From Thermoanaerobacter pseudethanolicus ATCC 33223 (GTDB lineage: Bacteria; Bacillota; Thermoanaerobacteria; Thermoanaerobacterales; Thermoanaerobacteraceae), in NCBI RefSeq assembly GCF_000019085.1, contig NC_010321.1, forward strand, positions 690,501 through 754,500: a stretch of DNA of 64,000 bases, written 5' to 3'. The translations under genes were made by a program, and so were the position numbers. Below, one piece after another: positions 10,486-37,377 of the stretch. Every line of letters begins with the position of its first letter. Position 1 is the first letter of the stretch. The notes under the pieces are model-generated. The model did no database searches. It saw nothing but the letters and a program-made list of their open reading frames with translations, and was not told where the DNA came from.

Positions 10486-10545
10486 ACATGTTGAGGATAT
10501 TAATAAATAATATACTAGATTTTGTGCAAAATAGAATATACACAG

Positions 10546-10813
10546 ATACAGGTGCCCAATTTCAAAGGGAAATTGGGTTAAAAGGGAAGCAGGTGAGAAT
10601 CCTGCACGGTCCCGCCACTGTGATGGTGAGCTCTTTACAAAAAGCCACTGCCTGGCACTTCCTTTTAGGTAAGTGGAGTAAAAAAACAGACAAAGGAACC
10701 ATCACCTTGTCTTCTTGCCTTTTTGGTTTGATTTGTAAAACATTGGGAAATATTGGGTGCCGGGTGGGAAGGCGTAAAGAGCGATGAACCTAAGTCAGGA
10801 GACCTGCCTGTAT
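10546..10813 (+). promoter_or_regulatory. Cobalamin (AdoCbl) riboswitch
   Basis: The conserved cobalamin-aptamer blocks occur in order: AAAAGGGAAGCAGGTGAGAA, then GCACGGTCCCGCCACTGTGA, then GGGAAGGC, then the B12 box AAGTCAGGAGACCTGCC (10793-10809). P1 closes as ATACAGG (10546-10552) with CCTGTAT (10807-10813). The aptamer is about 268 nt, longer than usual, because of an extra arm of roughly 120 nt between the GTGATGGTGAG segment and GGGAAGGC. It precedes a terminator/antiterminator pair and nrdD, so high B12 should switch off the B12-independent reductase. Confidence 0.92.
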
Positions 10814-10829
10814 TTGGATTACACTTGCT

Positions 10830-21810: not shown

Positions 21811-22554
21811 GTGATTAGACAAATGAGAATTTTTGCTGATTATCACACCCATACGGTATACAGCCATGGCAAAGGTACAATAGAGGATAATGTGAAAAGG
21901 GCAATAGAAATTGGACTTGAGGTAATTGCGATTACTGACCATGGACCAGCTCATGTATTTTATGGTTTAAGAAAAAGGGATTTTAAAAAAATGAGGGAGG
22001 AAATAGATAAGATTAATGAAAAATATCCTCAAATTAAAGTGCTGATGGGAGTAGAAGCTAATTTAATCAGCTTAGAAGGAGATATTGATGTTCCAGATGA
22101 ACTTATGAAATATTTAGATATTTTGCTTATGGGATATCATGAAGGAGTTATGCCTAAAGACTTTAGAAGTACTTTACAGCTTTTTGGTAAGAACATGGCA
22201 AGTAAATATTTTATTTCCTTGCGGGAAGAGATGAGAGAAAAAAATACTCAAGCGATGATTAATGCTATAAAAAAGTACAAAATTGACATAATAACACACC
22301 CCGGAGCAAAAGTAGACATTGATACACAAAAGCTTGCAAAGGCAGCAAAAGAGAAAGGAACGGCTCTTGAGATTAATTCTAGTCATGGTTATATGACAGT
22401 TGAATATGTAAAGATAGCCAAAAAAGAGGGGTGCAAATTTGTAATAAACAGCGATGCCCATACGCCTCATAAAGTAGGAGACTTTAAAAGGGGAATAGAA
22501 ATAGCAAAAGAGGCGGGACTAACAGAAGAAGATATAATAAACGCAAAGAGGTGA
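21811..22554 (+). CDS. PHP-domain phosphoesterase family protein
   Basis: A 247-residue PHP protein. Metal-binding motifs: DYHTHTVYSHGKG near residues 10-22, ITDHGPAH, then ITHPGAKVD and NSDAHTPHKVG near the end. The fold is shared by histidinol phosphatases and DNA polymerase PHP domains; the substrate here is not known. It starts directly after the murB stop. It is a frequent member of the rapZ-yvcK neighbourhood in thermophilic Firmicutes, so it probably belongs to the same operon. Confidence 0.87.
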   Translation: MIRQMRIFADYHTHTVYSHGKGTIEDNVKRAIEIGLEVIAITDHGPAHVFYGLRKRDFKKMREEIDKINEKYPQIKVLMGVEANLISLEGDIDVPDELMKYLDILLMGYHEGVMPKDFRSTLQLFGKNMASKYFISLREEMREKNTQAMINAIKKYKIDIITHPGAKVDIDTQKLAKAAKEKGTALEINSSHGYMTVEYVKIAKKEGCKFVINSDAHTPHKVGDFKRGIEIAKEAGLTEEDIINAKR

Positions 22555-22559
22555 TATTT

Positions 22560-23414
22560 ATGAGGTTTGTCATAATAACAGGGCTTTCTGGCGCTGGAAA
22601 AACACAGGCATTAAAAGCGATGGAGGATATGGGCTTTTTTTGTATAGACAATTTTCCACCTGCTCTTCTTCCAAAACTTGCTGACCTTTTTTATCACTCA
22701 AAAAATGTTGATAAGGTAGCCCTTGGTATGGATTTAAGAGGTGGCCAGTTTTTTGAGGACATCTATTCTAGCCTTGAGTTTTTGAAAAAAAACAACTACG
22801 ATTACGAAATAGTTTTTTTGGAAGCTTCTGACGAGGTTTTGATAAAGAGGTTTAAAGAAACCAGAAGAAAACATCCTCTCTCTGAGGAAGGTAGAATAGT
22901 TGATGGAATAAATGAGGAAAGAAAGAGACTTGCAGAAATAAGGAAAATTGCCAATAGCATAATAGATACTTCTAATTTAACTTCTTCCCAGTTAAAAGAG
23001 GAATTGTCTAATATCTTTTTAAAAGGGAAAAAGTTTAAAGGAATCATAATAGATATTATGTCTTTTGGATATAAATATGGAATACCTCTTGATGCTGACC
23101 TTGTATTTGATGTGAGGTTTTTGCCTAATCCTTTTTATATTGAAGAGTTAAGACCTTTAACAGGAAATGATGATAAGGTAAAAGAGTACGTGATGAAGTG
23201 GGAGGAAGCAAAGGAGTTTTTAAAAAAATTAGGGGACATGATTAAATTTTTAATCCCGTATTATATAAGAGAAGGTAAATCTCAACTTGTTATAGCTATT
23301 GGATGCACAGGAGGAAAGCATAGGTCTGTTACTATTGCAAATGCCCTTTATGAGTTTCTAAAAAAAGAAGATTATTCTGTTATTTTGCACCATAGAGATA
23401 TAGGAGAGGAGTAA
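22560..23414 (+). CDS. rapZ: RapZ/YvcJ nucleotide-binding protein
   Basis: A 284-residue P-loop protein. Walker A ITGLSGAGKT is at the N-terminus and DNFPPALLP is the family signature. The C-terminal domain carries IGCTGGKHRSVTIAN, which in E. coli RapZ senses glucosamine-6-phosphate and binds small RNAs; Bacillus YvcJ affects competence. ATG 22560 follows AGAGGTG (an in-frame GTG at 22551 is the alternative). It sits in front of yvcK, as in Bacillus. Confidence 0.95.
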   Translation: MRFVIITGLSGAGKTQALKAMEDMGFFCIDNFPPALLPKLADLFYHSKNVDKVALGMDLRGGQFFEDIYSSLEFLKKNNYDYEIVFLEASDEVLIKRFKETRRKHPLSEEGRIVDGINEERKRLAEIRKIANSIIDTSNLTSSQLKEELSNIFLKGKKFKGIIIDIMSFGYKYGIPLDADLVFDVRFLPNPFYIEELRPLTGNDDKVKEYVMKWEEAKEFLKKLGDMIKFLIPYYIREGKSQLVIAIGCTGGKHRSVTIANALYEFLKKEDYSVILHHRDIGEE

Positions 23415-23415
23415 T

Positions 23416-24390
23416 ATGATTATGAAAAATAATTCTAAAGGAGGACCTCGTATTGTTGCTATTGGTGGAGGTACAGGGCTTTCTACTATGTTGAGGGGGT
23501 TAAAATTTTATACAACTAATATTACTGCGGTAGTTACAGTAGCAGATGATGGCGGTGGCTCGGGAATCCTAAGACAGGATTTAGGGATACTGCCGCCTGG
23601 AGATATAAGAAATTGTATACTGGCTTTAGCAAATACAGAGCCTACAATGGAACAACTTTTGCAGTACAGGTTTACTGAGGGAATGTTAAAAGGACAAAAT
23701 TTTGGGAATTTGTTTTTGGCAGCCATGATAGGTATTTCTAAAAATTTTGAAGAAGCTGTAAAAAAGATGAGTGATGTGCTTGCTGTATCTGGAAAAGTTA
23801 TTCCTGTAACTCTTAATGATGTAAGGCTTGTAGCAGAGCTGGAAAACGGGACTATTATTAAAGGGGAATCGCAAATTCCTGTTGTACAACAAAAAGAAAA
23901 CAGCAAGATAAAGAGGATATATATTGAACCTTCTCATGCAGCGCCTTTTGAAGAAGTGTTAGTGGATATATTAAATGCTGATGCCATTATATTGGGTCCT
24001 GGAAGTTTATATACAAGTGTAATACCTAATCTTTTGGTAGATGGAATGTGTGATGCTATTGAAACCTCCAAAGCGGTTAAAATTTATGTATGTAATATCA
24101 TGACACAGCCAGGAGAGACTTTGGGTTATACTGCTTGTGACCATGTGAAGGCTCTTTTTGAACATGGGCTTAAATCTATAGATTACATTATTGTCAACAA
24201 TGGCGAAATTCCTCATGATTATATGGAGCGCTATATAAAAGACATGTCACAACCTGTTGAATACGATAAAAATCAGTTAGAAAGAATGGGAATTAAAGTA
24301 GTAGAAGAAAATTTAGTAGCTTTAAAAAAGGAATTTATAAGGCATAATGAGCAAAAGCTTGCAGAAGTGATTATAAGCCTATTAGTATAA
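23416..24390 (+). CDS. yvcK: YvcK/CofD-like gluconeogenesis factor
   Basis: A 324-residue protein starting with the nucleotide-sugar binding motif IVAIGGGTGLSTMLRGL and VADDGGGSGILRQDLG. YvcK proteins bind UDP-sugars and are needed for growth on gluconeogenic carbon and normal cell shape in Bacillus. The gene lies one base after rapZ. Its usual follower whiA is found only 13.4 kb later, beyond an alpha-glucan gene block. Confidence 0.94.
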   Translation: MIMKNNSKGGPRIVAIGGGTGLSTMLRGLKFYTTNITAVVTVADDGGGSGILRQDLGILPPGDIRNCILALANTEPTMEQLLQYRFTEGMLKGQNFGNLFLAAMIGISKNFEEAVKKMSDVLAVSGKVIPVTLNDVRLVAELENGTIIKGESQIPVVQQKENSKIKRIYIEPSHAAPFEEVLVDILNADAIILGPGSLYTSVIPNLLVDGMCDAIETSKAVKIYVCNIMTQPGETLGYTACDHVKALFEHGLKSIDYIIVNNGEIPHDYMERYIKDMSQPVEYDKNQLERMGIKVVEENLVALKKEFIRHNEQKLAEVIISLLV

Positions 24391-24427
24391 ATGCAAAATT
24401 TTAGTCTATGTTGTACAAAAAAATATA

Positions 24428-24456
24428 TTGACATTTGTTGAAATAAGATATACAAT
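24428..24456 (+). promoter_or_regulatory. Promoter of the amylase/maltodextrin genes
   Basis: TTGACA (24428-24433), 17 bp, TACAAT (24451-24456). Confidence 0.8.
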
Positions 24457-24472
24457 ATTATTAAAAGCAAGC

Positions 24473-24539
24473 GCAAGCGATTGCAATGAAATTGCAATTG
24501 GGCGCGCTTTTTAAAAATACGTTTCGAGAAAGCGATTGC
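24473..24539 (+). promoter_or_regulatory. Two cre-like / LacI-family operators
   Basis: GCAAGCGATTGC (24473-24484) lies just downstream of the promoter, and GAAAGCGATTGC (24528-24539) lies nearer to the gene. Both fit the catabolite response element pattern except for the first base. A duplicated ATTGCAAT block at 24480-24500 can also form a hairpin. Repression by CcpA or a MalR-type regulator is inferred. Confidence 0.65.
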
Positions 24540-24576
24540 TGTAACATATTGGCAATTACTTGTAAGGGGGAAAGTG

Positions 24577-26157
24577 ATGAGAAAAAATGTAAAGCTATTT
24601 GCGGTGATAATTTTAGTCTTTTCTTTATTGCTGACCAGTTGTGGTGTTAAAGATACCACTTCTAGTAATGTTCCTGAGTCGGATGTAATATATCAGGTTA
24701 TGATAGATAGGTTTTACAATGGGGATAAGTCCAACGATGACCCGGAAGTAAGTAAAGGTATGTTTGACCCAACCTATACCAATTGGAGGATGTATTGGGG
24801 TGGAGATTTAAAAGGTTTGACAGAAAAAATTCCTTATATAAAAGGGATGGGAGTAACAGCTATTTGGATTTCTCCTGTTGTAGACAACATCAACAAACCG
24901 GCAATATATAATGGCGAAATAAATGCACCTTATCACGGATATTGGGCAAGGGACTTTAAAAGAGTAGAAGAACATTTTGGTACATGGGAGGACTTTGACA
25001 ATTTTGTAAAGACTGCTCATGCTAATGGGATAAAAGTTGTACTAGATTTTGCTCCCAATCATACGAGTCCTGCAGATGAAAATAATCCTGACTTTGCTGA
25101 AAACGGTGCACTTTATGACGATGGGAAATTATTGGGAACTTATAGCAATGATGTCAATAAACTTTTTCATCATAATGGTGGAATTACCAACTGGAATAAT
25201 TTAAAGGACTTGCAGGATAAAAATTTGTTTGACCTTGCGGACCTTGATCAAAGTAATCCTATTGTTGACAAGTATTTAAAGGATTCTATCAAGTTATGGT
25301 TTAGTCATGGAATTGATGGGGTAAGGCTAGATGCTGCAAAGCATATGCCTATGGAGTGGGTGAAAAGCTTTGCTAATACTATTTACAGTGTTAAAAAAGA
25401 TGCGCTCCTTTTTGCTGAATGGATGTTAAGTGGTCCTACTGACCCATTGTATGGGTATAACATCCAATTTGCTAATACTACTGGCTTTTCTGTGTTAGAT
25501 TTCATGTTAAACAGGGTTATAAGAGATGTGTTTGGAAAGGGATATGGTTTTGATAGATTGAATGACACAATAGAAGAGACAAACAAGGATTACGATAATC
25601 CTTATAAATTGATTACTTTTATAGACAATCACGACATGCCAAGGTTCCTATCAATTAATTATGATAAGGATAAAATGCATGAAGCTATCGCTTTTATAAT
25701 GACTTCCCGTGGAATTCCAGCTATATACTATGGGACAGAGCAGTATCTTCACAATGATACAAACGGCGGAAATGACCCTTACAACAGACCAATGATGGAA
25801 AAGTTTGATGGGAATACTAAGGCTTATGTTTTAATTAGAGAACTATCAAAATTGCGTAAGGCTACACCGGCATTACAGTATGGGAAGACTGTAGCAAGAT
25901 ATGTTAGCGATGATGTTTATATCTATGAGAGGCAATATGGCAAAGATATAGTTGTAGTTGCAATAAATAAAGGAGAAGAGACTACTGTAAAAAATATAGA
26001 GACTTCTCTTCGAAAAGGCAAATACAGCGATTATTTAAAGGGTTTATTAGAAGGAGTTAATTTAAAAGTTGAAAGAAGAAATAGTGAAAACAACATTTTA
26101 AGTATAACTTTACCTAAAGACAGTGTCAGTATATGGACTAATGTAAGAGTGAAATAA
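24577..26157 (+). CDS. GH13 alpha-amylase-family lipoprotein
   Basis: A 526-residue secreted lipoprotein; the signal peptide ends with LLTSCG. The (beta/alpha)8 barrel has the GH13 motifs DFAPNHTSP, GVRLDAAKHMP (nucleophile Asp252), FAEWM (acid/base Glu281) and FIDNHDMPRF (Asp353), and the C-terminal beta domain ends the protein. The VIYQVMIDRFYNGD start and DAAKH motif place it near cyclodextrin glucanotransferases and CGTase-like amylases, but no starch-binding module follows. Anchored on the cell surface it would make short maltodextrins for the MalEFG importer encoded next. ATG 24577 is preferred to the adjacent GTG 24574 because of spacing to AAGGGGG. Confidence 0.88.
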   Translation: MRKNVKLFAVIILVFSLLLTSCGVKDTTSSNVPESDVIYQVMIDRFYNGDKSNDDPEVSKGMFDPTYTNWRMYWGGDLKGLTEKIPYIKGMGVTAIWISPVVDNINKPAIYNGEINAPYHGYWARDFKRVEEHFGTWEDFDNFVKTAHANGIKVVLDFAPNHTSPADENNPDFAENGALYDDGKLLGTYSNDVNKLFHHNGGITNWNNLKDLQDKNLFDLADLDQSNPIVDKYLKDSIKLWFSHGIDGVRLDAAKHMPMEWVKSFANTIYSVKKDALLFAEWMLSGPTDPLYGYNIQFANTTGFSVLDFMLNRVIRDVFGKGYGFDRLNDTIEETNKDYDNPYKLITFIDNHDMPRFLSINYDKDKMHEAIAFIMTSRGIPAIYYGTEQYLHNDTNGGNDPYNRPMMEKFDGNTKAYVLIRELSKLRKATPALQYGKTVARYVSDDVYIYERQYGKDIVVVAINKGEETTVKNIETSLRKGKYSDYLKGLLEGVNLKVERRNSENNILSITLPKDSVSIWTNVRVK

Positions 26158-26213: not shown

Positions 26214-27503
26214 ATGAAGAAGTACACAAAAATAATTGCTTTATTGACTGTGATGGTATTTGCTTTGTCAGCTGCTTTAACAGGTTGTGGTGGCAGCAAA
26301 ATTACAGAAACAGAAGAAAAAGCACAAGTATCTGAAACTGAAACAAATCAAGAGTTAAAACCTGAGCCAGGTGCAAAATTGCTTGTATGGGAAAGTGAAG
26401 GTCCAGAGGGAGAATTCATTCAGTATGCAGCAAAAAAATTTACTGAAAAATATGGTGTTGAAGTAGTATATGAGCCTGTTACTCATACTGATGCACGTGG
26501 AAGATTAGCTACTGATGGCCCTGCAGGCATTGGTGCTGATGTATTTGCGGCACCTCATGACCACACAGGAGAATTAGTAGTTTCAGGTTTAATTCAACCA
26601 AATGATATTTTTGCAGATCGAATTCGAAATGAATTTATGCAGGGAGCAGTAGATGCCGTTTCATATCAAGGCGTTGTATATGGTTATCCAACAGGAATTG
26701 AAACTTATGCACTTTTTTATAACAAGGATTATGTAAAAGAACCACCCAAAACTTATGAAGATCTTATCAAATTTGCTAAAGAATTTAATAATCCTGCAAA
26801 AAATCAATTCGCATTTATGTGGGATGTAGGCAATGCTTATTTTTCTCATAGTTTTATAGCAGGATATGGTGGCTATGTTTTTGGCGATGGAGGAACCAAT
26901 AAGGATGATATAGGTTTAAATTCCAAGGAAGCAGTTGAAGGAGCTAAATTTTTAGTTTCCCTTAAAGAGATTTTACCATTAAAGACTGATGATACCAATT
27001 ATCAAGTTATGGATGGTATGTTCAAGGAAGGAAAGGCTGCTATGATAATTAACGGACCATGGGCAGTAAGAGGTTATCAAGAAGCAGGTGTGAATTTTGG
27101 TATAGCTCCCCTTCCGTTGTTGCCGAATGACAAGCATCCCGCGAGTTTTTCTGGTGTTCGTACTATGTTTGTAAGTGCTTATACTAAGTATCCTAAAGCT
27201 GCAAAATTATTTGCTGATTTTATTACTTCAGAAGAAATGCTACTAAAGCGCTATGAAATTACAAAGCAGATTCCGCCAATGAAGTCGTTAATGGATGCAG
27301 ATATTATTAAAAACGATCCATATGCAGCACCTTTCCTTGAACAGGCACAATTTGCCGTGCCTATGCCTTCAATTCCTCAAATGGGAGTTGTCTGGGAGCC
27401 ATATGCTAGGGCGTTCCAAGTTATGTGGAATGACGGTGTAGATCCGCAAAAAGCATTGGATGAGGCCGTTCAGACAATAAAAGATGCAATTGCCATACAA
27501 TAA
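26214..27503 (+). CDS. malE: Maltose/maltodextrin ABC transporter substrate-binding lipoprotein
   Basis: A 429-residue lipoprotein with signal peptide and lipobox LTGC (Cys25). The CUT1-type binding fold shows LLVWESEGPEGEFIQYA, then VFAAPHDHTGELV and the AMIINGPWAVRGY motif typical of MalE. It captures maltodextrins (possibly cyclodextrins) outside the membrane. ATG 26214 behind GAGGAGG. An 18-bp hairpin after the stop separates it from malF and probably ensures excess binding protein. Confidence 0.92.
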   Translation: MKKYTKIIALLTVMVFALSAALTGCGGSKITETEEKAQVSETETNQELKPEPGAKLLVWESEGPEGEFIQYAAKKFTEKYGVEVVYEPVTHTDARGRLATDGPAGIGADVFAAPHDHTGELVVSGLIQPNDIFADRIRNEFMQGAVDAVSYQGVVYGYPTGIETYALFYNKDYVKEPPKTYEDLIKFAKEFNNPAKNQFAFMWDVGNAYFSHSFIAGYGGYVFGDGGTNKDDIGLNSKEAVEGAKFLVSLKEILPLKTDDTNYQVMDGMFKEGKAAMIINGPWAVRGYQEAGVNFGIAPLPLLPNDKHPASFSGVRTMFVSAYTKYPKAAKLFADFITSEEMLLKRYEITKQIPPMKSLMDADIIKNDPYAAPFLEQAQFAVPMPSIPQMGVVWEPYARAFQVMWNDGVDPQKALDEAVQTIKDAIAIQ

Positions 27504-27509
27504 TTTTTT

Positions 27510-27549
27510 AAAGATCTAGTCATTTGCAATTGCGAATGGCTAGATCTTT
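27510..27549 (+). terminator. Hairpin between malE and malF
   Basis: An 18-bp stem (27510-27527 / 27532-27549, two G-U pairs) with loop AATT, followed by a short T-rich stretch. It can act as partial terminator and 3' protector of malE mRNA. Confidence 0.75.
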
Positions 27550-27572
27550 TTAGAAAAATTGGAGGGACCAGT

Positions 27573-28862
27573 ATGAAAAGATCTAAAAGAGCGGCGTTAC
27601 TTTCTATATTGTTTATGGGACTCGGACAATTATACAATCGTGAAATTGCTAAAGGGATTTTATTTGCTATTGTTAATATCATTGTTCTCATTAATATTCC
27701 GTATTTTCGCTATGCTTATTGGGGGCTTATAACATTAGGGGAACAGCCTTTACACTATGTAAATGGGATTGCAGAGGGAGACCATTCTATATTTTTATTG
27801 ATACAAGGGATTATAGCTGTTTTAGTTACATTATTGATTATACTTATCTATGTATTAAATATTATAGATGCTTTTAAAACAGGAGAAGCGATAGAACAAG
27901 GGGAAAAACCGATGGGTATAGTAAAGTTTGTAAGATATGTTTCTCATAAATATTTCCCTTATCTTTCCTTAAGTCCAGCATTTGTTTTAATATTGTTTTT
28001 TACTTTATTGCCAATTTTATTTACTATTTCCATTGCCTTTACTAATTATTCTGCTCCTAATCATTTGCCTCCCAGGAACTTGGTAGATTGGGTTGGGGTT
28101 ACAAATTTTAAAAATTTACTAAATTTAAAAATATGGAAAAATACTTTTATTGGAGTAGGAATATGGACTATTATTTGGGCTTTACTGGCTTCATTAACTA
28201 GTTATTTCGGTGGGTTGTTGTTGGCTTTATTAGTTAATTCTGGAGATGTTCAACTAAAAAAGTTTTGGAGAACAATCTATATTTTACCTTATGCAATACC
28301 TGGTTTTATTTCGATTTTAACTATGAGATTGATGTTTACAGGGTTAGGTCCAGTCAATAATTTTTTAGTAAAACTTGGGTTTGAACGTATGCCGTGGCTT
28401 ACAAATCCTACAATGGCGAAAGTTGTTCTCATTTTAGTAAATATCTGGCTTGGAGCTCCGTATTTTATGGCTCTAATGTCAGGAACTTTAACTAATATTC
28501 CTGGTGATTTATATGAAGCTGCAGATATAGATGGAGCTACTCCATATCAAAAATTCCGAAAAATTACTTTGCCGTTGGTATTGCACGCTACAATGCCTTT
28601 ATTAATTTTGAGTTTCACACATAATTTTAACAATTTTACAATGATATATCTCTTGACTAGTGGTGGGCCTGCAAATCCTGCATATAGATATGCGGGACAC
28701 ACAGATATTTTAATTTCTTGGATTTACAAATTAACTTTGGAACAAAATCAATATAATATGGCTGCTGTTATATCAATTATTATGTTTATTGTTGTCGCAA
28801 CTATTTCTGCTTTCACCTTTAGTAGGACAAAGTCCTTTAGGGAGGAGGACTTAATACAATGA
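27573..28862 (+). CDS. malF: Maltodextrin ABC transporter permease MalF
   Basis: A 429-residue membrane protein. An unusual extra N-terminal region with three hydrophobic segments (residues 1-110) precedes the six-helix permease core. The EAA loop EAADIDGATPYQKFRKITLP (about residues 310-330) contacts the ATPase. ATG 27573 behind GGAGGG. It overlaps malG by four bases. No MalK-type ATPase is encoded in the window, so a shared ATPase elsewhere must drive it. Confidence 0.92.
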   Translation: MKRSKRAALLSILFMGLGQLYNREIAKGILFAIVNIIVLINIPYFRYAYWGLITLGEQPLHYVNGIAEGDHSIFLLIQGIIAVLVTLLIILIYVLNIIDAFKTGEAIEQGEKPMGIVKFVRYVSHKYFPYLSLSPAFVLILFFTLLPILFTISIAFTNYSAPNHLPPRNLVDWVGVTNFKNLLNLKIWKNTFIGVGIWTIIWALLASLTSYFGGLLLALLVNSGDVQLKKFWRTIYILPYAIPGFISILTMRLMFTGLGPVNNFLVKLGFERMPWLTNPTMAKVVLILVNIWLGAPYFMALMSGTLTNIPGDLYEAADIDGATPYQKFRKITLPLVLHATMPLLILSFTHNFNNFTMIYLLTSGGPANPAYRYAGHTDILISWIYKLTLEQNQYNMAAVISIIMFIVVATISAFTFSRTKSFREEDLIQ

Positions 28863-29749
28863 GAAAAAAGCTTGTTGGAGGATTGGGTGAGTCAAATATG
28901 GGAAACAAAAAGAAAAAAAATACTTTCTTAGATTTTATACGCAAAATGATTATTTATATACTTCTTATAACTCTTTCTTTTATTGTAATAATTCCTATAA
29001 TTTGGATAATTGGTTCTTCTCTTAACCCAGGAGATACTTTGTTTAGTTCTACATTAATTCCTAAAAATCCTAGCTTAGTTCATTATAAGACTTTACTTAC
29101 TAATTCTGATTTTCCTTTATGGTATAAGAATACACTTAAAATTGCAACAGCTAATATGATTGTGTCGGTATTTTTATCTACAAGCACTGCCTATGTTTTT
29201 TCTCGATATCGATTTATGGGTAGGAAGTCCATGCTAATGACAATATTGGTACTTCAAATGTTTCCAAGCTTTTTAGCTATGACTGCTATTTATGTATTAT
29301 TACTACAACTAGGGTTACTGGATACTCATCTTGGATTAATTCTTGTTTATGCTACTGGCCAAATACCTTATAATACCTGGGTGGCAAAAGGGTATTTTGA
29401 CGGGATTCCCCGCAGTATGGACGAAGCCGCAAAAATTGACGGAGCATCCAACTTTACAATATTTTATAAAATTATTTTACCCCTAGCAAAACCCATTATT
29501 ACCTTCATAGCTTTAACCAACTTTACTGGACCATGGATGGATTTTGTGCTACCGAAATTAATTCTTCGCAGTGCTGACAAAAAAACCCTGGCAATGGGAT
29601 TATATGACATGGCCGTCCACCAACACAATACAAAATTTACTCTTTTTGCAGCCGGAGCCGTATTGGTAGCTATTCCTATTACTTTGTTGTTTGTCTACCT
29701 CCAGAAACATATTGTGGAGGGACTAACAAAGGGAGCAGTAAAAATCTAA
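28859..29749 (+). CDS. malG: Maltodextrin ABC transporter permease MalG (mosaic gene)
   Basis: A 296-residue inner-membrane permease with the EAA loop DEAAKIDGASNFTIFYKI (about 185-203) and the family's C-terminal FVYLQKHIVEGLTKGAVK. It pairs with MalF. Base composition changes inside the gene: the first half (to about 29340) is very AT-rich like its neighbours, while the second half is visibly richer in G and C. A second, native-looking malG tail lies at 32506-32553 after the CGTase gene. This points to a recombination that replaced the 3' half together with downstream DNA. Confidence 0.88.
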   Translation: MRKKLVGGLGESNMGNKKKKNTFLDFIRKMIIYILLITLSFIVIIPIIWIIGSSLNPGDTLFSSTLIPKNPSLVHYKTLLTNSDFPLWYKNTLKIATANMIVSVFLSTSTAYVFSRYRFMGRKSMLMTILVLQMFPSFLAMTAIYVLLLQLGLLDTHLGLILVYATGQIPYNTWVAKGYFDGIPRSMDEAAKIDGASNFTIFYKIILPLAKPIITFIALTNFTGPWMDFVLPKLILRSADKKTLAMGLYDMAVHQHNTKFTLFAAGAVLVAIPITLLFVYLQKHIVEGLTKGAVKI

Positions 29750-29996
29750 AAATACTTGGGAACAGGTTGAAAACTATCATAAAAAATGAAGTAGTAGTCT
29801 ATAGCATAAATAGGTTCTACAAGTAGAAGCTAGAGCGTCTGAGACATTGTCAAAGCTATATAGCAATGAAATCAGAAGATACTCTAAAAATTAATATAAG
29901 GCTAAATACCCATAAAAGTTGATTGGCGTAGCTGTTGCTTGCTGAAGAATGTTTTATTAATTTATTAAAGTAAATATTGAAATAGGGGGATAACCT
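29750..29996 (+). other. Intergenic leader between malG and the CGTase-like gene
   Basis: About 250 bases with no usable open frame and no strong hairpin or repeat recognised. It belongs to the block that looks transferred together with the CGTase-like gene. Confidence 0.4.
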
Positions 29997-32270
29997 GTGG
30001 CTGCTTTAATTAAGAAAAAAAGATTAAGTGTTTTAGTGGCTGTGATAATACTGCTGGCTTTCTCTTTCAATCTTCAGCCGGTTACTGTCGAAGCCACGAG
30101 TACTGGAGGATTAGGTCCTGTAACGCCAAAGGATACCATTTATCAAATTATTACAGATCGGTTTTATGATGGTGATCCATCAAACAATATTCCTCCAGGT
30201 TTCGATCCTACACTTTTTGACGGAACAGGAAGTGACTTGAAGCTGTATCAGGGAGGCGATTGGAAGGGAATTATTGAGAAAATTCCTTATTTAAAGGAAA
30301 TGGGCATTACAGCAGTTTGGATTTCTGCTCCTTATGCCAATCGTGATACGGTGATTGAAGATTATCATCCGGACGGCAGCGTCGACAGGTGGACCAGTTT
30401 TCACGGATATCATGCTAGAAACTATTTTGCTACTAATAAACATTTCGGAGAAATGCAGGATTTTATTGCACTGCGAGATGCTCTCCACAGTAACGGAATA
30501 AAACTGGTTATTGACTTTGTATCCAATCATAGTAGTAGGTGGCAAAATCCTACATTAAACTATCAGCCGGAAGATGGAAGATTGTACGAACCTGACAAAG
30601 ATGAAAATGGAAACTACGTATTTGACAGCAATGGGAATCCGGTGGATTATAACGGAGACGGAATAGTTGAAAATCTATTGGCTGATCCTCACAATGATAT
30701 TCATGGTTTTTTCCACGGGTTAGGGGATCGAGGAGATGATAATACCAGATTTGGGTATCGCCATAAGGATTTGGGTTCGCTGGCGGATTATTCCCAGGAG
30801 AATTCCGTGGTGGTGGAATATCTAGAAAAAGCTGCAATATTCTGGAAATCAAAAGGTATAGATGGTATACGTCATGACGCAACTCTTCATATGAATCCAG
30901 CTTTTGTTCAAGGGTTTAAAGATGCGATTGATTCTGCACCAGGGGGGCCTATTACTCATTTTGGAGAATTTTTTATCGGACGTCCAGATCCTAAATATGA
31001 AGAATATCGTACCTTCCCTGATCGAACTGGGGTTAATAATTTAGATTTTGAATACTATCGTGCAGCGACCAATACTTTTGGTTATTTTTCTGAAACCATG
31101 AAAGACTTTGGTGAAATGATGATAAAAACCAGTAACGATTATATTTATGAAAATCAAGCGGTTACCTTTATCGATAATCATGATGTAACCCGGTTTAGGT
31201 ATATACAGCCAAATGACAAACCTTATCATGCAGCGTTGGCAGTCTTGATGACATCCCGTGGGACACCTAATATATACTATGGTACCGAACAGTACTTATA
31301 TCCTGCAGATGCCAGTGATATTGCCGGAAGAATGTTCATGCAGACATCAACTTCCTTTGATCAAACCACAACAGCTTATAAGCTGATTCGCAAACTTTCC
31401 GATTTGAGAAGAAGCAATGAAGCTGTTGCCTACGGTACGACAGAAATACTTTACAGTACAGATGATGTATTAGTCTTCAAACGGCAATTTTATGACAAGC
31501 AAGTAATTGTTGCCGTAAATCGACAACCCGATAGAAGTTTTGCTGTACCGGATTTAAAAACTACACTGCCTGTAGGAACCTATCAGGACGTACTAGAGGG
31601 ATTACTATACGGAAAATCCATGACGGTGGTGGAGGAAAATGGTCAGCATAAGATTAAAGGCTTTACCCTATCGGGAGGAGAAGTAAACGTTTGGGCCTAT
31701 AATCCTTCACTGGGGACAGAAATTCCAAGGATAGGCAATGTCATTTCTACAATGGGTCGTCCAGGTAATCTAGTTTATATTTATGGTACTGGTCTTGGAG
31801 GAAATGTAACGGTTAAATTTGATACAACACCGGCTCAAGTGGTGTCCAACAGTGATGAAATGATTACTGCCGTTGTTCCCAATACGCCGGGGATTAAGAG
31901 CATTACAGTAATAAAGGGAAACTATACCAGTAATTCTTTCCGCTATCATGTGTTATCTGGTGATCTGGTTCAGGTAATAGTTAAAGTAAATGCATCAACG
32001 GAATGGGGACAAAATATTCATATTGTTGGGAACTTGCCAGAACTAGGAGGCTGGGATCCTGCCATGTCGACAGAAGCAATGATGTGTCCCAATTATCCTG
32101 AATGGTTCCTGCCAGTAAGTGTTCCAATGGGAACAACCTTTGAGTTTAAGTTTATTAAAAAAGACAGTAATGGAAATGTTATATGGGAAAGTGGTGAAAA
32201 TCGTATCTTTACTTCTCCCAATACGTCTACTGGAACCGTTGATACACCGGTATACAATTGGAGGTATTGA
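29997..32270 (+). CDS. Secreted cyclodextrin glucanotransferase-like GH13 enzyme with starch-binding domain
   Basis: A 757-residue secreted protein with signal peptide (cleavage near TVEATS). Domains in order: GH13 catalytic barrel (about 40-490) with GIRHDATLHM (Asp294), FGEFF (Glu324) and FIDNHDVTRF (Asp396); an IPT/TIG-like domain (about 575-650, IPRIGNVISTMGRPGNLVYI); and a C-terminal CBM20 starch-binding domain (about 655-757, containing WGQNIHIVGNLPELGGWDP). This A-B-C-D-E order is that of CGTases. Unusual: the region-II motif reads HDATLH where CGTases have VDAVKH, so acceptor-site lysine is lost and product specificity may differ. It is also longer than usual CGTases. GTG 29997 behind AGGGGG. 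The G+C content looks higher than that of its neighbours, suggesting transfer. Confidence 0.85.
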   Translation: MAALIKKKRLSVLVAVIILLAFSFNLQPVTVEATSTGGLGPVTPKDTIYQIITDRFYDGDPSNNIPPGFDPTLFDGTGSDLKLYQGGDWKGIIEKIPYLKEMGITAVWISAPYANRDTVIEDYHPDGSVDRWTSFHGYHARNYFATNKHFGEMQDFIALRDALHSNGIKLVIDFVSNHSSRWQNPTLNYQPEDGRLYEPDKDENGNYVFDSNGNPVDYNGDGIVENLLADPHNDIHGFFHGLGDRGDDNTRFGYRHKDLGSLADYSQENSVVVEYLEKAAIFWKSKGIDGIRHDATLHMNPAFVQGFKDAIDSAPGGPITHFGEFFIGRPDPKYEEYRTFPDRTGVNNLDFEYYRAATNTFGYFSETMKDFGEMMIKTSNDYIYENQAVTFIDNHDVTRFRYIQPNDKPYHAALAVLMTSRGTPNIYYGTEQYLYPADASDIAGRMFMQTSTSFDQTTTAYKLIRKLSDLRRSNEAVAYGTTEILYSTDDVLVFKRQFYDKQVIVAVNRQPDRSFAVPDLKTTLPVGTYQDVLEGLLYGKSMTVVEENGQHKIKGFTLSGGEVNVWAYNPSLGTEIPRIGNVISTMGRPGNLVYIYGTGLGGNVTVKFDTTPAQVVSNSDEMITAVVPNTPGIKSITVIKGNYTSNSFRYHVLSGDLVQVIVKVNASTEWGQNIHIVGNLPELGGWDPAMSTEAMMCPNYPEWFLPVSVPMGTTFEFKFIKKDSNGNVIWESGENRIFTSPNTSTGTVDTPVYNWRY

Positions 32271-32277
32271 AAAAAGG

Positions 32278-32304
32278 AAGAAATTGAGTTTCAGCTCAAT
32301 TACT
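32278..32304 (+). terminator. Hairpin after the CGTase-like gene
   Basis: AATTGAG-TTTCAG-CTCAATT with flanking GAAG/CTTC pairing; the T-rich tail is weak (ACTTCATTT). Confidence 0.5.
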
Positions 32305-32505
32305 TCATTTATCATCGGTTATTTGTTCTTCAAAAAAAGCAGCATGGATGGGGAAAAGGAAAGTTTGTCAGGTTTTAGTTTGATTAATCTATCATAGTTA
32401 CACTGGGTCCTCAGAAACTTATACAGATTATGGGTTTTCCAATGTTTTTTTAATTTTATTTGATCGGTATGGTAAATCACTTCTTCCAGTAAAATTTTAG
32501 GTTCT
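32305..32505. other. Gene-free stretch
   Basis: No open frame or structure recognised; degenerate sequence between the CGTase hairpin and the malG tail remnant. Confidence 0.4.
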
Positions 32506-32553
32506 GAGAGATACTTGCAAGCTGGTCTTGCAGCAGGTGCAGTAAAAGGATAA
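32506..32553 (+). pseudogene. Remnant of the original malG 3' end
   Basis: The frame reads ERYLQAGLAAGAVKG and TAA, which matches the conserved C-terminus of MalG permeases (compare YLQKHIVEGLTKGAVK at the end of the intact malG, 2.8 kb upstream). It is followed by a terminator, as an operon end should be. It marks where the native malG once ended. Confidence 0.7.
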
Positions 32554-32582
32554 AAAATTGTTACACATGGAACAATTTGTAA

Positions 32583-32608
32583 ATACCGGATTATTTCCGG
32601 TATTTTTA
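32583..32608 (+). terminator. Terminator after the malG remnant
   Basis: ATACCGG-ATTATTT-CCGGTAT followed by TTTTATTTT. Confidence 0.8.
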
Positions 32609-32675
32609 TTTTGTATATAAATAAAAATTTATGGCAAGAATAAATATGTATTTGCTTTTAAAGGAGGTGTCAAAA

Positions 32676-33665
32676 ATGAGTAAGACTGTAGGAATACCCA
32701 AAGGACTTTTATATTACGATTTTTATCCAATGTGGAAGACTTTTTTTGAAGGTGTGGGATCAAAAGTAGTGGTTTCTCAGGATACAAATAAAAAAATTCT
32801 TGATGAAGGAGTAAAAAACTGTGTTGAAGATGCTTGTCTTCCTGTAAAAACTTATGTAGGACATGTGATAAATTTAAAAGAAAAAAACGTTGATTATATA
32901 TTTATTCCGAGGGTTGTAAGTGTAGAAAGAAAAAAATACCTTTGTTCAAAGTTTTTGGGACTGCCAGATTTTATAAAAAGCTTAATTGGTGATTTACCAC
33001 CTATTATAGATATTGAGATTAATTATTATAAAAATAATGATAAATTTACTCAAAATGAATTTATAAAAATTGGCAGGATGTTTGGGAAGACTAAAGACCA
33101 ATCTTTAAAAGCCTATTTTAAGGCTACCCACCAACAAAAAAAGTTCGAGAGTTTGTTGAAAGAAGGTCTTACCAATTTAGAAGCTTTAAAAGTTTGGGAA
33201 GGAAAGAATTTGGTAAAAGAAGAAAGTAATTATGACCTTAAAATAGCCGTCATTGCTCATCCTTATGATATTATGGATGAATACATAAGTATGGGGATTA
33301 TTGAAAAGTTAAAAAACATGGGAGCGCAAGTTTATACCATGGAAATGTTAGAGAGAGATTTAATATTAGAAGGAGTGTCAATGCTTTCAAAAGAAATGTT
33401 TTGGAACTATGAAAGAGATATTTTGGGAGCGGGATTGTATTTTTTAAAACAAAAGAATGTAGATGGGGTAATTATGGTTTCTGCTTTTGGTTGTGGACCT
33501 AATTCTATGACAGAGGAATTGTTGGAGAGGATTTATAAAAGAGAGAAGGAGGTACCTTTTATGTTGATTACAATTGATGAACATTCGGGGGAAGCTGGCA
33601 TTATGACGAGGTTGGAGGCTTTTACAGACCTTTTAAGATTTAATAAAAAGGCGGTGATGGTATGA
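32676..33665 (+). CDS. Acyl-CoA dehydratase activase-related protein (COG3580/DUF2229)
   Basis: A 329-residue protein starting TVGIPKGLLYYDFYPMWKTFF, the DUF2229 signature. Conserved cysteines lie in NCVEDACLPVK and AFGCGPNS, and the end carries IDEHSGEAGIMTRLEAF. Such proteins are homologous to parts of 2-hydroxyacyl-CoA dehydratase systems and may bind an iron-sulfur cluster; the substrate is unknown. ATG 32676 follows AAGGAGGTG (32661-32669). It overlaps the next gene by four bases. No ATPase activase is nearby. Confidence 0.78.
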   Translation: MSKTVGIPKGLLYYDFYPMWKTFFEGVGSKVVVSQDTNKKILDEGVKNCVEDACLPVKTYVGHVINLKEKNVDYIFIPRVVSVERKKYLCSKFLGLPDFIKSLIGDLPPIIDIEINYYKNNDKFTQNEFIKIGRMFGKTKDQSLKAYFKATHQQKKFESLLKEGLTNLEALKVWEGKNLVKEESNYDLKIAVIAHPYDIMDEYISMGIIEKLKNMGAQVYTMEMLERDLILEGVSMLSKEMFWNYERDILGAGLYFLKQKNVDGVIMVSAFGCGPNSMTEELLERIYKREKEVPFMLITIDEHSGEAGIMTRLEAFTDLLRFNKKAVMV

Positions 33666-34738
33666 AAATTACTTATCCTCACATGGGTTCTTTAAATATG
33701 ATTTTAAAGACGATGTTTGAAGGAATTGGGGTAGAAGTGATAGACCCACCACCTTCTACTAATAAAACTTTGACCTTAGGAGTTAGAAATTCTCATGAAT
33801 TTGCATGTTTACCCTTTAAAATCAATGTCGGAAATTTTATTGAGGCTCTTGATAAGGGAGCAGATACGATTATAATGTTAGGGGGAATTGGGCCCTGCAG
33901 ATTTGGGTATTACGGTCAGGTGCAGAGAGAGATATTAAAAGATTTGGGCTATGACTTTAAAATGATAATTGTTGATCCACCCCATGGCAGGTTGATAGAC
34001 TTTTTAAAAGAATTAGCTTCATATTTTCCTAATGTAGATGGAAAAATAGCTTTAAAATCTTTTGTATTTGCAGTGAAAAAAATGATAGCGGCTGATAAAT
34101 TAGAAAAGTTTTTATTAAAATACAGAGCCCATGAAGATAACCCAGGTGTAACTACAAAAATATACGAAGAATATATGAAAAAGCTAGAAAAAGCTCAAAA
34201 TGGTAAAGAAGTGGACAAAATAGTATCAGAGGCCATGAAAAAAATAAAGGAAAATGCAAATGTACGGAGGAAAATACAGCTTAAAGTAGCACTAGTGGGA
34301 GAAATTTATATGCTCCTAGAACCCTTTACTAATATGGATATCAGCAAATCTTTAAATGAATTGGGGGTAGAAGTTACAAAAACAGAATATCTTTCAGATT
34401 ATTTAATTAACAGTGCTTTTAAATTGCCTCAAAGAATGGAGTTTAAGAAAAACGCAAGAGGATATTTAGAAAGAGATATAGGAGGACATGGGCTCAACAC
34501 TGTTGCAAATACCGTAAAATATGCTAAACTAAATTATGATGGCGTGATTCACATACTTCCATTTACCTGCACCCCTGAAATAGTAGCTCAAGGAATAATT
34601 GCAAAAATTAGCCGAGATTACAATATTCCAGTGATGTCTTTAGTATATGATGAAAACACTGGACAAGCAGGTTACCAAACCCGTTTGGAAGCTTTTGTGG
34701 ATCTTTTGTATAGAAAAAGGATGGAGGTAGTTTGCTGA
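33662..34738 (+). CDS. Acyl-CoA dehydratase-related protein (COG3581)
   Basis: A 358-residue protein, coupled to the previous gene. It shares the fold: SHEFACLPFKINVGNF, GGIGPCRFGYYG and PFTCTPEI give the cysteine positions, and DENTGQAGYQTRLEAFVDL mirrors the end of its partner. The pair probably forms a two-subunit iron-sulfur protein of unknown activity. In many Clostridia the same two genes follow a BadF/BcrA-type ATPase, which is absent here. Confidence 0.75.
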   Translation: MKITYPHMGSLNMILKTMFEGIGVEVIDPPPSTNKTLTLGVRNSHEFACLPFKINVGNFIEALDKGADTIIMLGGIGPCRFGYYGQVQREILKDLGYDFKMIIVDPPHGRLIDFLKELASYFPNVDGKIALKSFVFAVKKMIAADKLEKFLLKYRAHEDNPGVTTKIYEEYMKKLEKAQNGKEVDKIVSEAMKKIKENANVRRKIQLKVALVGEIYMLLEPFTNMDISKSLNELGVEVTKTEYLSDYLINSAFKLPQRMEFKKNARGYLERDIGGHGLNTVANTVKYAKLNYDGVIHILPFTCTPEIVAQGIIAKISRDYNIPVMSLVYDENTGQAGYQTRLEAFVDLLYRKRMEVVC

Positions 34739-34837
34739 AATCATCCTTTTAATTTTTATTTTTCCGAAAATAATGAAGGAAAAATGTATTTTGTGTGGAA
34801 TATATAATAAGTGGATGGTTAGTAAGGGGTGATAGGT

Positions 34838-35638
34838 ATGAAGGAATTGGGAGAATTTTTAAAAAGTGAAAGAATTAAAATGGGATTGACTCTTGAAGAA
34901 ATTCAAGAAATAACTAAAATACGGATACGCTATTTGAAAGCTATTGAAGATGGAGATTTTAGCGTAATGCCTGCACTTGTATATGCTAAGGGCTTTGTAA
35001 AAAGTTACGCTGAGGCCTTAGGGTTAGATGGCAATGAGTTGGTAAAAAAGTATGAGTATTTGTTTCAGGAGAAAGAGGAGGAAGCCATACCTAATATAGA
35101 GACCACATCTTACAAAAAAGAGAGAAGAGATTTTTCACAATTTTTTTTGACTTTAAAAAAAGCAGTAATTGTTGTTTTAATAATAGGTATTATAGGATAC
35201 GGTTTTTACTATTTTCTAATTCAAGTTAAAAAAGGACTTGCACCAATTCCACAACAAAATCAAAGTGAAGCTTCAACAATTTCGGAAGACAAAACAAATC
35301 TTCCACAGGAAAGCAATGTTTCTCAACCTATAGTAAAGACGTCGATTGAAAAAGTAGCAGAGACTTCTAAAAAAATAGAATATAAAGTTGTTCCCTTTGG
35401 AGAAAGTTATAAAGTAGAAATAAGCGTACCTGGCGAAAAATGTTGGTTTAGTGTAAAAGTAGATGGAAATGTCGTTTATGAAGGCCTTATGACAAAGGAT
35501 ATGTCTAAAATTTTTGATGTAAAAGATAGTATTACTATATTGATGGGATATCCGCCAGCTGTTAAAATAACTGTAGACGGTGAGGAGCTACCAACAGTAC
35601 ATACACCATCACCGGTTACTATAAATATTCATCCATAG
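34838..35638 (+). CDS. RodZ-like helix-turn-helix membrane protein
   Basis: A 266-residue protein. An N-terminal Xre-type HTH (LGEFLKSERIKMGLTLEEIQ, then RYLKAIEDGDF) is followed by a charged linker, one transmembrane helix (AVIVVLIIGIIGYGFYYF, about residues 110-128) and a C-terminal DUF4115-like beta domain. This is the RodZ/YmfM layout that links the MreB cytoskeleton to cell shape. ATG 34838 behind AAGGGGTG; GTG 34829 is the alternative. It is located between the dehydratase-like pair and cyclomaltodextrinase. Confidence 0.85.
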   Translation: MKELGEFLKSERIKMGLTLEEIQEITKIRIRYLKAIEDGDFSVMPALVYAKGFVKSYAEALGLDGNELVKKYEYLFQEKEEEAIPNIETTSYKKERRDFSQFFLTLKKAVIVVLIIGIIGYGFYYFLIQVKKGLAPIPQQNQSEASTISEDKTNLPQESNVSQPIVKTSIEKVAETSKKIEYKVVPFGESYKVEISVPGEKCWFSVKVDGNVVYEGLMTKDMSKIFDVKDSITILMGYPPAVKITVDGEELPTVHTPSPVTINIHP

Positions 35639-35652
35639 AAAGGAGAAAAAAG

Positions 35653-37377
35653 ATGATAAAAGAAGCTATATTCCATAAAAGCGATGTGCCTTACGCATAT
35701 CCACTGAATGAAAATCAATTAAAGATAGTACTAAGGACTGCTGTATTTGATGTAGATAGGGTGTATGTTTTATACAAAGACAGATACGATTGGCTGGGAA
35801 AATTCAAAATAAAACCAATGGTATTAACTCATACCAACGAGTTATTTGATTATTATGAGACTACTTTAGAGCTTAATAAAAAATTTGTGTATTTTTTCTA
35901 TTTGGTATCTGATGGGGGCGAGAAGTTATATTATACAGAAGCAGGATTTTACAAAAAAAGGCCAGAAAATCATTTTTGGGGATTTTTCCATTACCCGTAT
36001 ATAGGAGAAAAGGATGTCTTTTTTGCTCCAGAGTGGACAAGCGATTGCATGGTGTATCAGATATTTCCTGAAAGGTTTAATAACGGTGATAAATCAAATG
36101 ACCCTGAAAATGTAAAGCCCTGGGGTGAAAAACCTACTGCAGATTCTTTCTTTGGAGGAGATTTGCAAGGAATAATAGATAAAATAGATTATTTAAAGGA
36201 TTTGGGTATAAATGCCATTTATTTAACCCCCATATTTTTATCGCATTCCACCCACAAATATGATACTACTGATTATTATACAATTGACCCCCACTTTGGT
36301 GATACGCAAAAAGCGAGAGAACTTGTGCAAAAATGTCATGACAATGGCATAAAAGTTATATTTGATGCCGTTTTTAATCACTGCGGATATGACTTTTTTG
36401 CATTTCAGGATGTTATTAAAAATGGTAAAAAATCAAAATACTGGGATTGGTTTAATATATACGAATGGCCAATTAAAACTCATCCAAAACCTTCCTATGA
36501 AGCTTTTGCAGATACTGTATGGAGAATGCCAAAACTTATGACAAAAAATCCAGAAGTACAGAAGTATTTATTGGAAGTAGCGGAATATTGGATTAAAGAA
36601 GTGGACATAGACGGCTGGAGGCTGGATGTTGCTAATGAGATAGACCACCATTTTTGGAGAAAGTTTAGAGAAGTTGTAAAGGCAGCTAAACCGGAGGCCA
36701 TAATTGTAGGAGAGGTTTGGCATGATGCTTCTCCTTGGCTTAGAGGGGATCAGTTTGACAGTGTAATGAACTATCCTTTTAGAAATGCGGTTGTGGACTT
36801 TTTTGCAAAAAGGAAAATAAGTGCTTCTCGCTTTAATACAATGATTACAGAGCAACTTATGAGGCATATGGATAGTGTAAATAGGGTTATGTTTAATTTA
36901 ATAGGAAGTCATGATACTGAGAGGTTTTTGACTTTAGCTAATGGCATGGTTGCGAGAATGAAGTTAGCATTAGTGTTTCAATTTACCTTTGTTGGAATCC
37001 CATATATTTACTATGGGGACGAGGTAGGAATGGTGGGAGATTATGACCCTGATTGCAGAAGATGCATGATATGGGAGGAGGAAAAGCAAAATAAAAGTAT
37101 TTTTAATTTCTATAAAAAGTTGATTTCTATAAGGAGAGAAAATGAGGAGCTCAAATACGGAAGTTTCTGTACTTTATATGCTATAGGAAGAGTGTTTGCT
37201 TTTAAGAGGGAATACAAAGGTAAATCAATAATTGTTGTACTAAATAACAGTAGCAAGCAGGAAGTGATATTTTTGAATGAAGTAGAAGGAAAAGAAGATA
37301 TTTTAAAGATGAAGGAATTAAAAAGAAGTGGAAATCTCCTTTACTTGCAACCTAACTCTGCCTATATTTTAAAGTAA
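35653..37377 (+). CDS. Cyclomaltodextrinase / neopullulanase (intracellular GH13)
   Basis: A 574-residue cytoplasmic enzyme without signal peptide. An N-terminal CBM34-like domain (about 1-120) precedes the GH13 barrel: DAVFNHCG, GWRLDVANEI (nucleophile Asp325), VGEVWHD (Glu354) and IGSHDTERF (Asp421), with the subfamily motif MPKLM. Length, residue spacing and N-domain match cyclomaltodextrinase, maltogenic amylase and neopullulanase, which open cyclodextrins and trim maltodextrins. It would act on sugar brought in by MalEFG. It starts 14 bases after the RodZ-like gene and ends at a strong terminator. Confidence 0.93.
   Translation: MIKEAIFHKSDVPYAYPLNENQLKIVLRTAVFDVDRVYVLYKDRYDWLGKFKIKPMVLTHTNELFDYYETTLELNKKFVYFFYLVSDGGEKLYYTEAGFYKKRPENHFWGFFHYPYIGEKDVFFAPEWTSDCMVYQIFPERFNNGDKSNDPENVKPWGEKPTADSFFGGDLQGIIDKIDYLKDLGINAIYLTPIFLSHSTHKYDTTDYYTIDPHFGDTQKARELVQKCHDNGIKVIFDAVFNHCGYDFFAFQDVIKNGKKSKYWDWFNIYEWPIKTHPKPSYEAFADTVWRMPKLMTKNPEVQKYLLEVAEYWIKEVDIDGWRLDVANEIDHHFWRKFREVVKAAKPEAIIVGEVWHDASPWLRGDQFDSVMNYPFRNAVVDFFAKRKISASRFNTMITEQLMRHMDSVNRVMFNLIGSHDTERFLTLANGMVARMKLALVFQFTFVGIPYIYYGDEVGMVGDYDPDCRRCMIWEEEKQNKSIFNFYKKLISIRRENEELKYGSFCTLYAIGRVFAFKREYKGKSIIVVLNNSSKQEVIFLNEVEGKEDILKMKELKRSGNLLYLQPNSAYILK

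Follow-up and report, generated by a model that had tools for sequence, protein, structure and literature searches.

Probable in-place exchange of the resident ABC sugar-importer operon for a foreign relative at the thm locus of Thermoanaerobacter pseudethanolicus

How did the last codons of a permease gene come to lie behind a gene for a starch-acting enzyme, when that gene itself follows a copy of the same permease gene? The question arises at the thm locus of Thermoanaerobacter pseudethanolicus ATCC 33223, in a 64,000-nucleotide stretch of the chromosome that is called the window here (G000:C1:690501-754500; the genome is a single contig of 2,362,816 bases), where malE, malF and malG, the genes of a sugar importer of the ATP-binding cassette (ABC) type, are followed by a gene resembling those for cyclodextrin glucanotransferases (CGTases). 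Very probably, the resident importer operon was replaced in place by a related foreign one. The resident gene order is kept on both sides of a stretch that is foreign from about codon 29 of malE to the last 14 codons of the native malG and that comprises malE-malF-malG and the CGTase-like gene. The product is a chimeric malE, a foreign malF, a mosaic malG, an added CGTase-like amylase (secretion predicted) and a malG stub with its terminator. The features on which the argument turns are listed below; L147 is a contig of T. thermocopriae and L042 a contig of a metagenome-assembled genome (MAG), both carrying related genes, GC3 is the G+C content of third codon positions, and pS and dS are the observed and corrected synonymous divergences.

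26214-26299, + strand: native malE 5' end, with the lipoprotein signal peptide and the start of the linker (congener malE alignments end at 26298-26301)
26300-26359, + strand: left native/foreign seam inside malE (native similarity stops at about 26299, similarity to L042/L147 starts at 26360)
26360-27503, + strand: foreign mature part of malE, a solute-binding protein (PF13416/PF01547; best solved relative 2zyk, a solute-binding protein)
27573-28862, + strand: foreign malF, permease (PF00528)
28859-29323, + strand: 5' part of the foreign malG, rich in A+T and far diverged from L042 (pS 0.749 for 28950-29320; GC3 21.9)
29324-29749, + strand: 3' part of the foreign malG, of younger and T. thermocopriae-like origin (change point at 29324; dS 0.30)
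29809-29932, no strand assigned: relic in the malG-CGTase spacer that resembles an IS110-family element at its noncoding end (80% over 126 bp to L159, where an IS110 transposase follows)
29997-32270, + strand: five-domain CGTase-like GH13 enzyme of 757 amino acids (PF00128, PF22026, TIG, CBM_20; 94% amino-acid identity to L042)
32305-32506, no strand assigned: right end of the foreign segment, with no source assigned (L042/L147 similarity stops at 32304)
32507-32553, + strand: stub of the lost native malG, its last 14 codons (32509-32550) and TAA stop (32551-32553); DNA and C-terminus match native malG
32581-32605, + strand: terminator-like hairpin of native malG (z -3.9 for 32552-32620; conserved in congeners)

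The native state of the locus can be read from nine Thermoanaerobacter congeners (G001-G009), and the near relatives of the window include T. thermocopriae JCM 7501 (L041 = G007:C30). Colinearity with the window extends in all nine from about 20560 to 26298-26301. In eight of them the order is thmA-malE-malF-malG-DUF2229, that is, native malEFG of about 3 kb follows, and the match to the window resumes at 32507 or 32509. The ninth, G005, is without malEFG; there malE codon ~29 is linked to the terminator through a short piece resembling a repeat, and colinearity returns at 32581. Since native malEFG is present in eight congeners and the malG-DUF2229 order is also found in another genus of the family (L150), native malEFG is ancestral at the thm locus.

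The right-hand boundary preserves a remnant of this state. The initial annotation had noticed a second C-terminal piece of malG, with a terminator, after the CGTase-like gene, and this was borne out: 32509-32550 encodes RYLQAGLAAGAVKG, followed by a stop, and the hairpin lies at 32581-32605. These are the last 14 residues in six of the seven native MalG proteins compared, identical in six congeners and differing by one residue in L150. At the DNA level, 32507-32680 aligns at 95-97% to the native malG 3' end and the DNA downstream of it (five full-length matches), and the match of the stub region up to 32640 has E values of 1e-56 to 1e-59 per genome. Because the match runs on into the native flank, the stub is what remains, at its 3' end, of the native malG that was lost, as had been supposed. 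A longer remnant upstream (32271-32506) was considered and rejected: a by-eye resemblance, LGPQKLIQ to LGLQRFIQ, does not rise above dinucleotide shuffles, and in nine comparisons upstream of the stub, in which 32 to 166 of 200 shuffles scored as high, no malG similarity above shuffles was found. The stub is thus limited to 14 codons. The preceding segment, 32305-32506, is shared with the MAG contig L040 up to 32439, where that contig ends.

On the left, native similarity stops within malE, and the reading frame is kept across the seam. Window malE is a native/foreign chimera in which the resident lipoprotein signal, MKKYTKIIALLTVMVFALSAALTGCGGSK, stands on a foreign binding domain. Identities of the window proteins to the native proteins and to those of L042 are 40 and 85% for MalE, 42 and 86% for MalF, and 39 and 91% for MalG (MalE, MalF and the CGTase-like enzyme were compared by identities; trees were built for malG only). 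The N half of MalG is 34-38% identical in amino acids to native malG and 83% to L042, and its C half 40-41% and 97%. In the protein trees (34/35 rows; the native malG of L146 was excluded, its frame being broken) both halves pair with L042 (support 100/99 and 99/98), and native malG forms a group of its own (100/100 and 100/99). Neither half of window malG is native; therefore, native mature malE, malF and malG have all been replaced. In the window's own genome no native-like malG occurs elsewhere, the next best match being 35%, and the native malG of congeners at the thm locus is 39-41% identical. The locus thus has the marks of in situ xenologous operon displacement: the flanks are conserved, the replacing genes are homologues from another lineage, and the native copy is lost save for the stub.

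Within the foreign part, malG holds a further boundary. The midway change of base composition that had drawn attention to the gene is real: G+C rises from 29.4% (GC3 21.2%) in 28859-29338 to 39.4% (GC3 35.8%) in 29339-29749, and the change point, at 29,324, lies 16 bases from the claimed 29,340. L042 malG is flat over the same halves (37.3/37.7%). Identity to L042 per 100 bases goes from 66-78% in 28800-29299 to 89-96% in 29300-29699, with third-position mismatches at 66 of 130 sites before 29,324 and 21 of 141 after it; the change point has a log-likelihood ratio of 20.7 (0 of 2000 permutations as high), and a scan over malE-malG picks the same position (0 of 500). Window GC3 is 22-24 in malE, malF and the malG 5' part and then 34.5 in the 3' part, whereas in L042 it is 31-40 throughout malEFG, which suggests that the window copy, not L042, is the recombinant at 29,324. 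The foreign malG joins two sources: the left one is older and A+T-rich, and the younger one on the right also carries the CGTase-like gene.

The same contrast is seen in synonymous divergence from L042. It is 0.90 (dS) for malE from 26360 and 1.39 for malF, and it is saturated in the malG 5' part (pS 0.75), in comparison with pS 0.25 and dS 0.30 in the malG 3' part and dS of 0.17-0.36 by thirds of the CGTase-like gene. Nine resident genes, compared between the window and T. thermocopriae on their first tblastn pieces only, give dS of 0.16-0.47. Because of these values, the right part has an age like that of the species split and the left part is much older; the malG 3' part and the CGTase-like gene would be as old as the split or the result of a transfer of that age. 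The CGTase-like gene is, as the initial annotation stated, richer in G+C than its surroundings: its G+C is 40.1% and its GC3 31.7%, above all 29 other plus-strand open reading frames (ORFs) of the window (mean 26.1, sd 3.1, maximum 30.8).

The module has a second home. In T. thermocopriae (G007) native malEFG is in place at thm (L146), and the foreign module lies on another contig (L147) between mntR and mntH. Because these two genes adjoin in six of six congener loci where both were found (L187-L192), the T. thermocopriae module is an insertion there. It is set in the mntR terminator region (L042 604-623 and 7238-7257; L147), and the overlap of 18-20 bp relative to empty sites looks like a partial hairpin duplication. 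Ahead of the inserted malE stand 255 bp that copy the end of yvcK and the region upstream of thmA; they are 86-89% identical to the own copies of six congeners and to that of the window, so that the module looks as if it had once been placed behind the yvcK/thmA promoter. At an identity of at least 90%, the enzyme occurs in only two of 37 genomes of the class, G000 and G007, and among 398 genomes of the phylum there is one further carrier, G409, through L042. As evidence for a module outside Thermoanaerobacter L042 was rejected: over 8610 bp, mntR and mntH among them, it matches T. thermocopriae at 99.6%, so that the contig is almost certainly of T. thermocopriae type and probably misbinned in G409. 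It was used for the codon work because the copy in the G007 draft has broken frames. Another MAG contig, L040, labelled Bacillales bacterium UBA6259, repeats 26352-32439 of the window at 99.85%; in its positions 950-1371 Ns fall exactly at the malE seam and most of thmA is lacking, and the contig is probably a strain mixture.

Several other histories could be proposed for this arrangement. The initial annotation held that a single crossover within native malG had brought a foreign malG 3' half and the CGTase gene, the native end thereby being shifted 2.8 kb downstream. It was right about the break in mid-malG, about the cargo to the right of that break and about the native end, and the part of the claim by which malG is a mosaic whose 3' half travels with the CGTase-like gene stands. 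The native origin of the 5' half does not, given its 34-38% identity to native malG against 83% to L042, and native similarity ends already in malE, about 3 kb upstream of the claimed place. MalF and mature MalE are foreign as well. Since neither malG half is native and the native/foreign chimera is malE, a native-to-foreign crossover in malG is the wrong reading, and the single-crossover history is very improbable. Nor is the stub the missing end of the present malG 5' half, window malG being foreign in both halves. It could also be supposed that nothing recombined within malG and that two parts of one foreign module differed in rate or in compositional drift. Separate phylogenies of the halves had been proposed, with a shared nearest relative named as speaking against a break; both do share L042, but they do so at different depths (pS 0.75 vs 0.25). 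GC3 of malF and the malG 5' part is 36 and 40 in L042 vs 24 and 22 in the window, and drift or opposite swaps could contribute to the contrast. Against this, the change is abrupt, lies within a gene where no domain border was noted, and is seen at third positions with 0 of 2000 permutations reaching it, which makes uninterrupted descent of malG unlikely. An ancestral position of the foreign-looking module in Thermoanaerobacter, with replacement in the other species, would agree with its presence in two species of the genus; as the loci differ between the two, the native malG-DUF2229 order reaches another genus and the window keeps a native malG stub, such a history is scarcely credible.

The remaining alternatives concern how the module came rather than what it replaced. 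Arrival by transposition, through an IS110-type or similar element instead of homologous recombination, is suggested by the IS110-like relic at 29809-29932 and by the T. thermocopriae insert at the mntR terminator with its 18-20 bp overlap. The relic, however, is internal to the module, and L042 does not have it. Both seams fall in homologous genes of one and the same operon, malE staying in frame, and no transposase ORF is seen within the module; neither terminal repeats nor a target duplication were seen at 26300-26359 or 32507. Transposition is thus improbable as the route of arrival. To an artefact of assembly or strain mixture, which the Ns and odd left end of L040 might bring to mind, almost no credence can be given: the genome is one contig, L040 itself repeats the module at high identity, and the module ORFs are intact.

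In-place replacement therefore remains the preferred reading, and the flanks give some indication of how the module reached its present genome. The profile search of the window neighbourhood gave a three-domain CGTase, a MalEFG-type importer, two DUF2229 genes, RodZ and a cyclomaltodextrinase (CDase)-like gene; it is the thm cluster of PMC8760340, which in its available part lists T. pseudethanolicus ATCC 33223 among the thm carriers. Three features of these flanks are needed here.

24574-26157, + strand: thmA, three-domain (A, B and C) CGTase of the resident thm cluster (1046 bits to PDB 6wni over the whole length; colinear in nine of nine congeners)
32507-33621, + strand: native-type DNA (stub, terminator, DUF2229 gene) with an allele unlike that of the nearest relative (mismatch change point against G001)
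35653-37377, + strand: resident CDase-like gene (PF02903 and PF00128; colinear in congeners)

PDB 6wni is presumably CldA of the cld cluster work. Compared with G001, the nearest genome, the window shows 2 differences in 1920 positions in 22550-24469 and 3 in 2271 in 33630-35900. Alignment to G001 (L140) gives 38 mismatches in 1114 positions for 32507-33621 and then 3 in 2280, with the change point at 33,621 (0 of 300 permutations). In 32507-33629 G001 is 1.0-1.2% from L148 and L149, and the window 3.4-4.0%; because G001, not the window, is close to these two, the window is the recombinant in this tract. The window and G001 also differ heavily in thmA, where the window has a private divergent segment (25400-25800) that is 15.5-18.2% different from all eight congeners compared. 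The thmA of G001 is 0.1-0.2% from that of T. thermocopriae (L146) in 24470-25800, with the left flank 5.6% apart, and was swapped separately in G001 itself. A change point against G001 at 24,487 was accordingly rejected as the left edge of the last transfer: G001 thmA is nearly that of T. thermocopriae, and since the two are 0.1% apart in 24470-25399, at least part of the break belongs to G001. The locus appears, on these alignments, to be a patchwork from several allelic exchanges.

It is reasonable to assume that natural transformation brought in DNA of relatives, which recombined homologously in two or more steps. For the last of these the donor may already have had the module within its thm locus, with a right edge near 33,621, and the seams at 26300-26359 and 32507 were probably formed in an earlier host and imported together with flanking homologous DNA. 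Natural transformation would be the most economical route, because a CO-adapted strain of T. kivui exchanged about 15 kb of its own DNA, an operon included, for 11 kb of X514 DNA with an ABC sugar importer, and 13 of 17 Thermoanaerobacterales strains are reported to be competent (PMC9834392, in the part available). Some points weigh against this account or parts of it. Competence of this strain itself is an assumption, no genome in hand carries the whole arrangement as a donor, and the order of the two recombination events is not fixed. The right tract edge is clear at 33,621, whereas the left one is confounded by the thmA swap of G001. The 29,324 change point is based on one comparison lineage (L042 and L147 are 99.6% identical), and the IS110 relic of the spacer leaves room for a role of a transposon.

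What the exchange brought would depend largely on the added enzyme. Its best solved relatives are CGTases (424-458 bits), the set of A/B/C, TIG (D) and CBM20 (E) domains is complete, and the Asp/Glu/Asp catalytic triad is kept (IRHDA, FGEF and DNHD aligned with true CGTases). CGTases are told from alpha-amylases by a central Tyr/Phe and a hydrophobic pair, the central aromatic residue being needed for cyclization, as the accessible text of PMC8760340 has it. The CGTase-like enzyme lacks the aromatic residue and has Gly in its place (KDLGSLAD). Gly is also found in L042 and Ala in two distant relatives (L163, L164), and Phe/Tyr in ThmA and in the CGTases of four relatives (L154, L155, L165; in L166 Phe/Tyr or the same motif). 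At the first site of the hydrophobic pair it has Asp (Trp in ThmA; a gapped stretch and therefore less sure), and at the second Phe. It thus appears to resemble a secreted starch-acting GH13 enzyme but to be without the defining CGTase feature; because Gly replaces the central aromatic residue, cyclization is unlikely, and the enzyme probably does not make cyclodextrins. A plasmid search with it matched 367 records, none at more than 60% identity and none covering 80% in one place. Functionally, the new genes would use the resident leader and signal peptide, the CGTase-like enzyme would cut starch outside the cell, the new MalEFG would import the products, and the resident CDase and glucosidases would use them. 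The CDase role given in the available part of PMC8760340 is the degradation of imported cyclodextrins.

A more general view of the locus may be offered tentatively. The window swap, the private thmA piece, the thmA of G001, the loss of malEFG in G005 and the mntR-mntH module with its 255-bp yvcK/thmA piece give reason to consider the thm locus a plug-in site, at which the flanks, promoter region, malE signal peptide and CDase stay and the importer and secreted-enzyme genes are repeatedly exchanged between species; this is possible but not the likelier view. If exchange does recur at thm, the congeners form a natural swap set for the study of importer/enzyme co-adaptation.

Some further observations concern the repeats and neighbours of the locus. 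A short repeat resembling a miniature inverted-repeat transposable element (MITE), with inverted ends AAGGAGATATTTTGCA...TGCAAAATATCTCCTT and arms starting about 195-265 bp apart, lies directly downstream of native malG in three congeners and also at the deletion join of G005 (L142 15217-15495, L143 15452-15664, L148 15263-15542, L144 15181-15392; also L142 863 and L144 3873); its exact arms are absent from the window. The IS110-like spacer relic has no counterpart in the short spacer of L042, and a 46-bp piece of it recurs at G000:C1:666546. The noncoding end carries the bridge RNA in some IS110 elements. In G006 (G006:C1:1632131-1632811) the native malG match starts only at residue 68 of the protein, in a 241-residue frame that may lack its start. 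Cobalamin and S-adenosylmethionine (SAM) riboswitches lie in the window at 10533-10825 and 60130-60234.

As a rule, operon swaps are deduced from trees. At this locus the two seams still exist in the DNA, so that the exchange can be followed at the level of single bases: signal peptide and leader come from the old operon, the working parts are new, and of the old gene 14 final codons are left. The case illustrates how DNA taken up from relatives could alter starch uptake in a thermophile that is of interest for biofuels. Two labels need correction: to judge by its residues, the product of the CGTase-like gene probably does not form cyclodextrins, and in this lineage the importer of the published thm cluster is non-native. 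No report of this operon swap was found in the open-licence literature, and the words horizontal, gene transfer, synteny and thermocopriae are absent from the available part of the PMC8760340 text.

As a type, the swap is a well-preserved event of an ordinary kind, known for this genus. The T. kivui replacement (PMC9834392), as far as the accessible part of that paper describes it, likewise took place in the same genus, by homologous recombination in syntenic flanks; it was, however, a laboratory transfer from one known donor, whereas the window module is only about 40% identical in protein to the genes that it replaced, adds an enzyme with predicted secretion, is a mosaic and left a stub. With the thm, cld and thb clusters for starch use via cyclodextrins (PMC8760340) the window shares thmA, an MdxEFG-type importer and the CDase, but the thm clusters are described in the available text as three-domain clusters, and the window has a foreign EFG part together with a second GH13 enzyme, of five domains. 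In situ gene displacement and mosaic operons, as reported for repABC in the part of PMC2783167 at hand, are similar in that foreign genes replace homologues with the operon order kept; in the window, unlike those cases, the seams lie inside genes and both are preserved. Finally, lateral transfer of mal operons among thermophiles (PMC2246101, available in part) likewise moves whole maltose/maltodextrin transporter operons, but there the gained operons are inferred from trees, whereas the window holds a replacement with physical seams.

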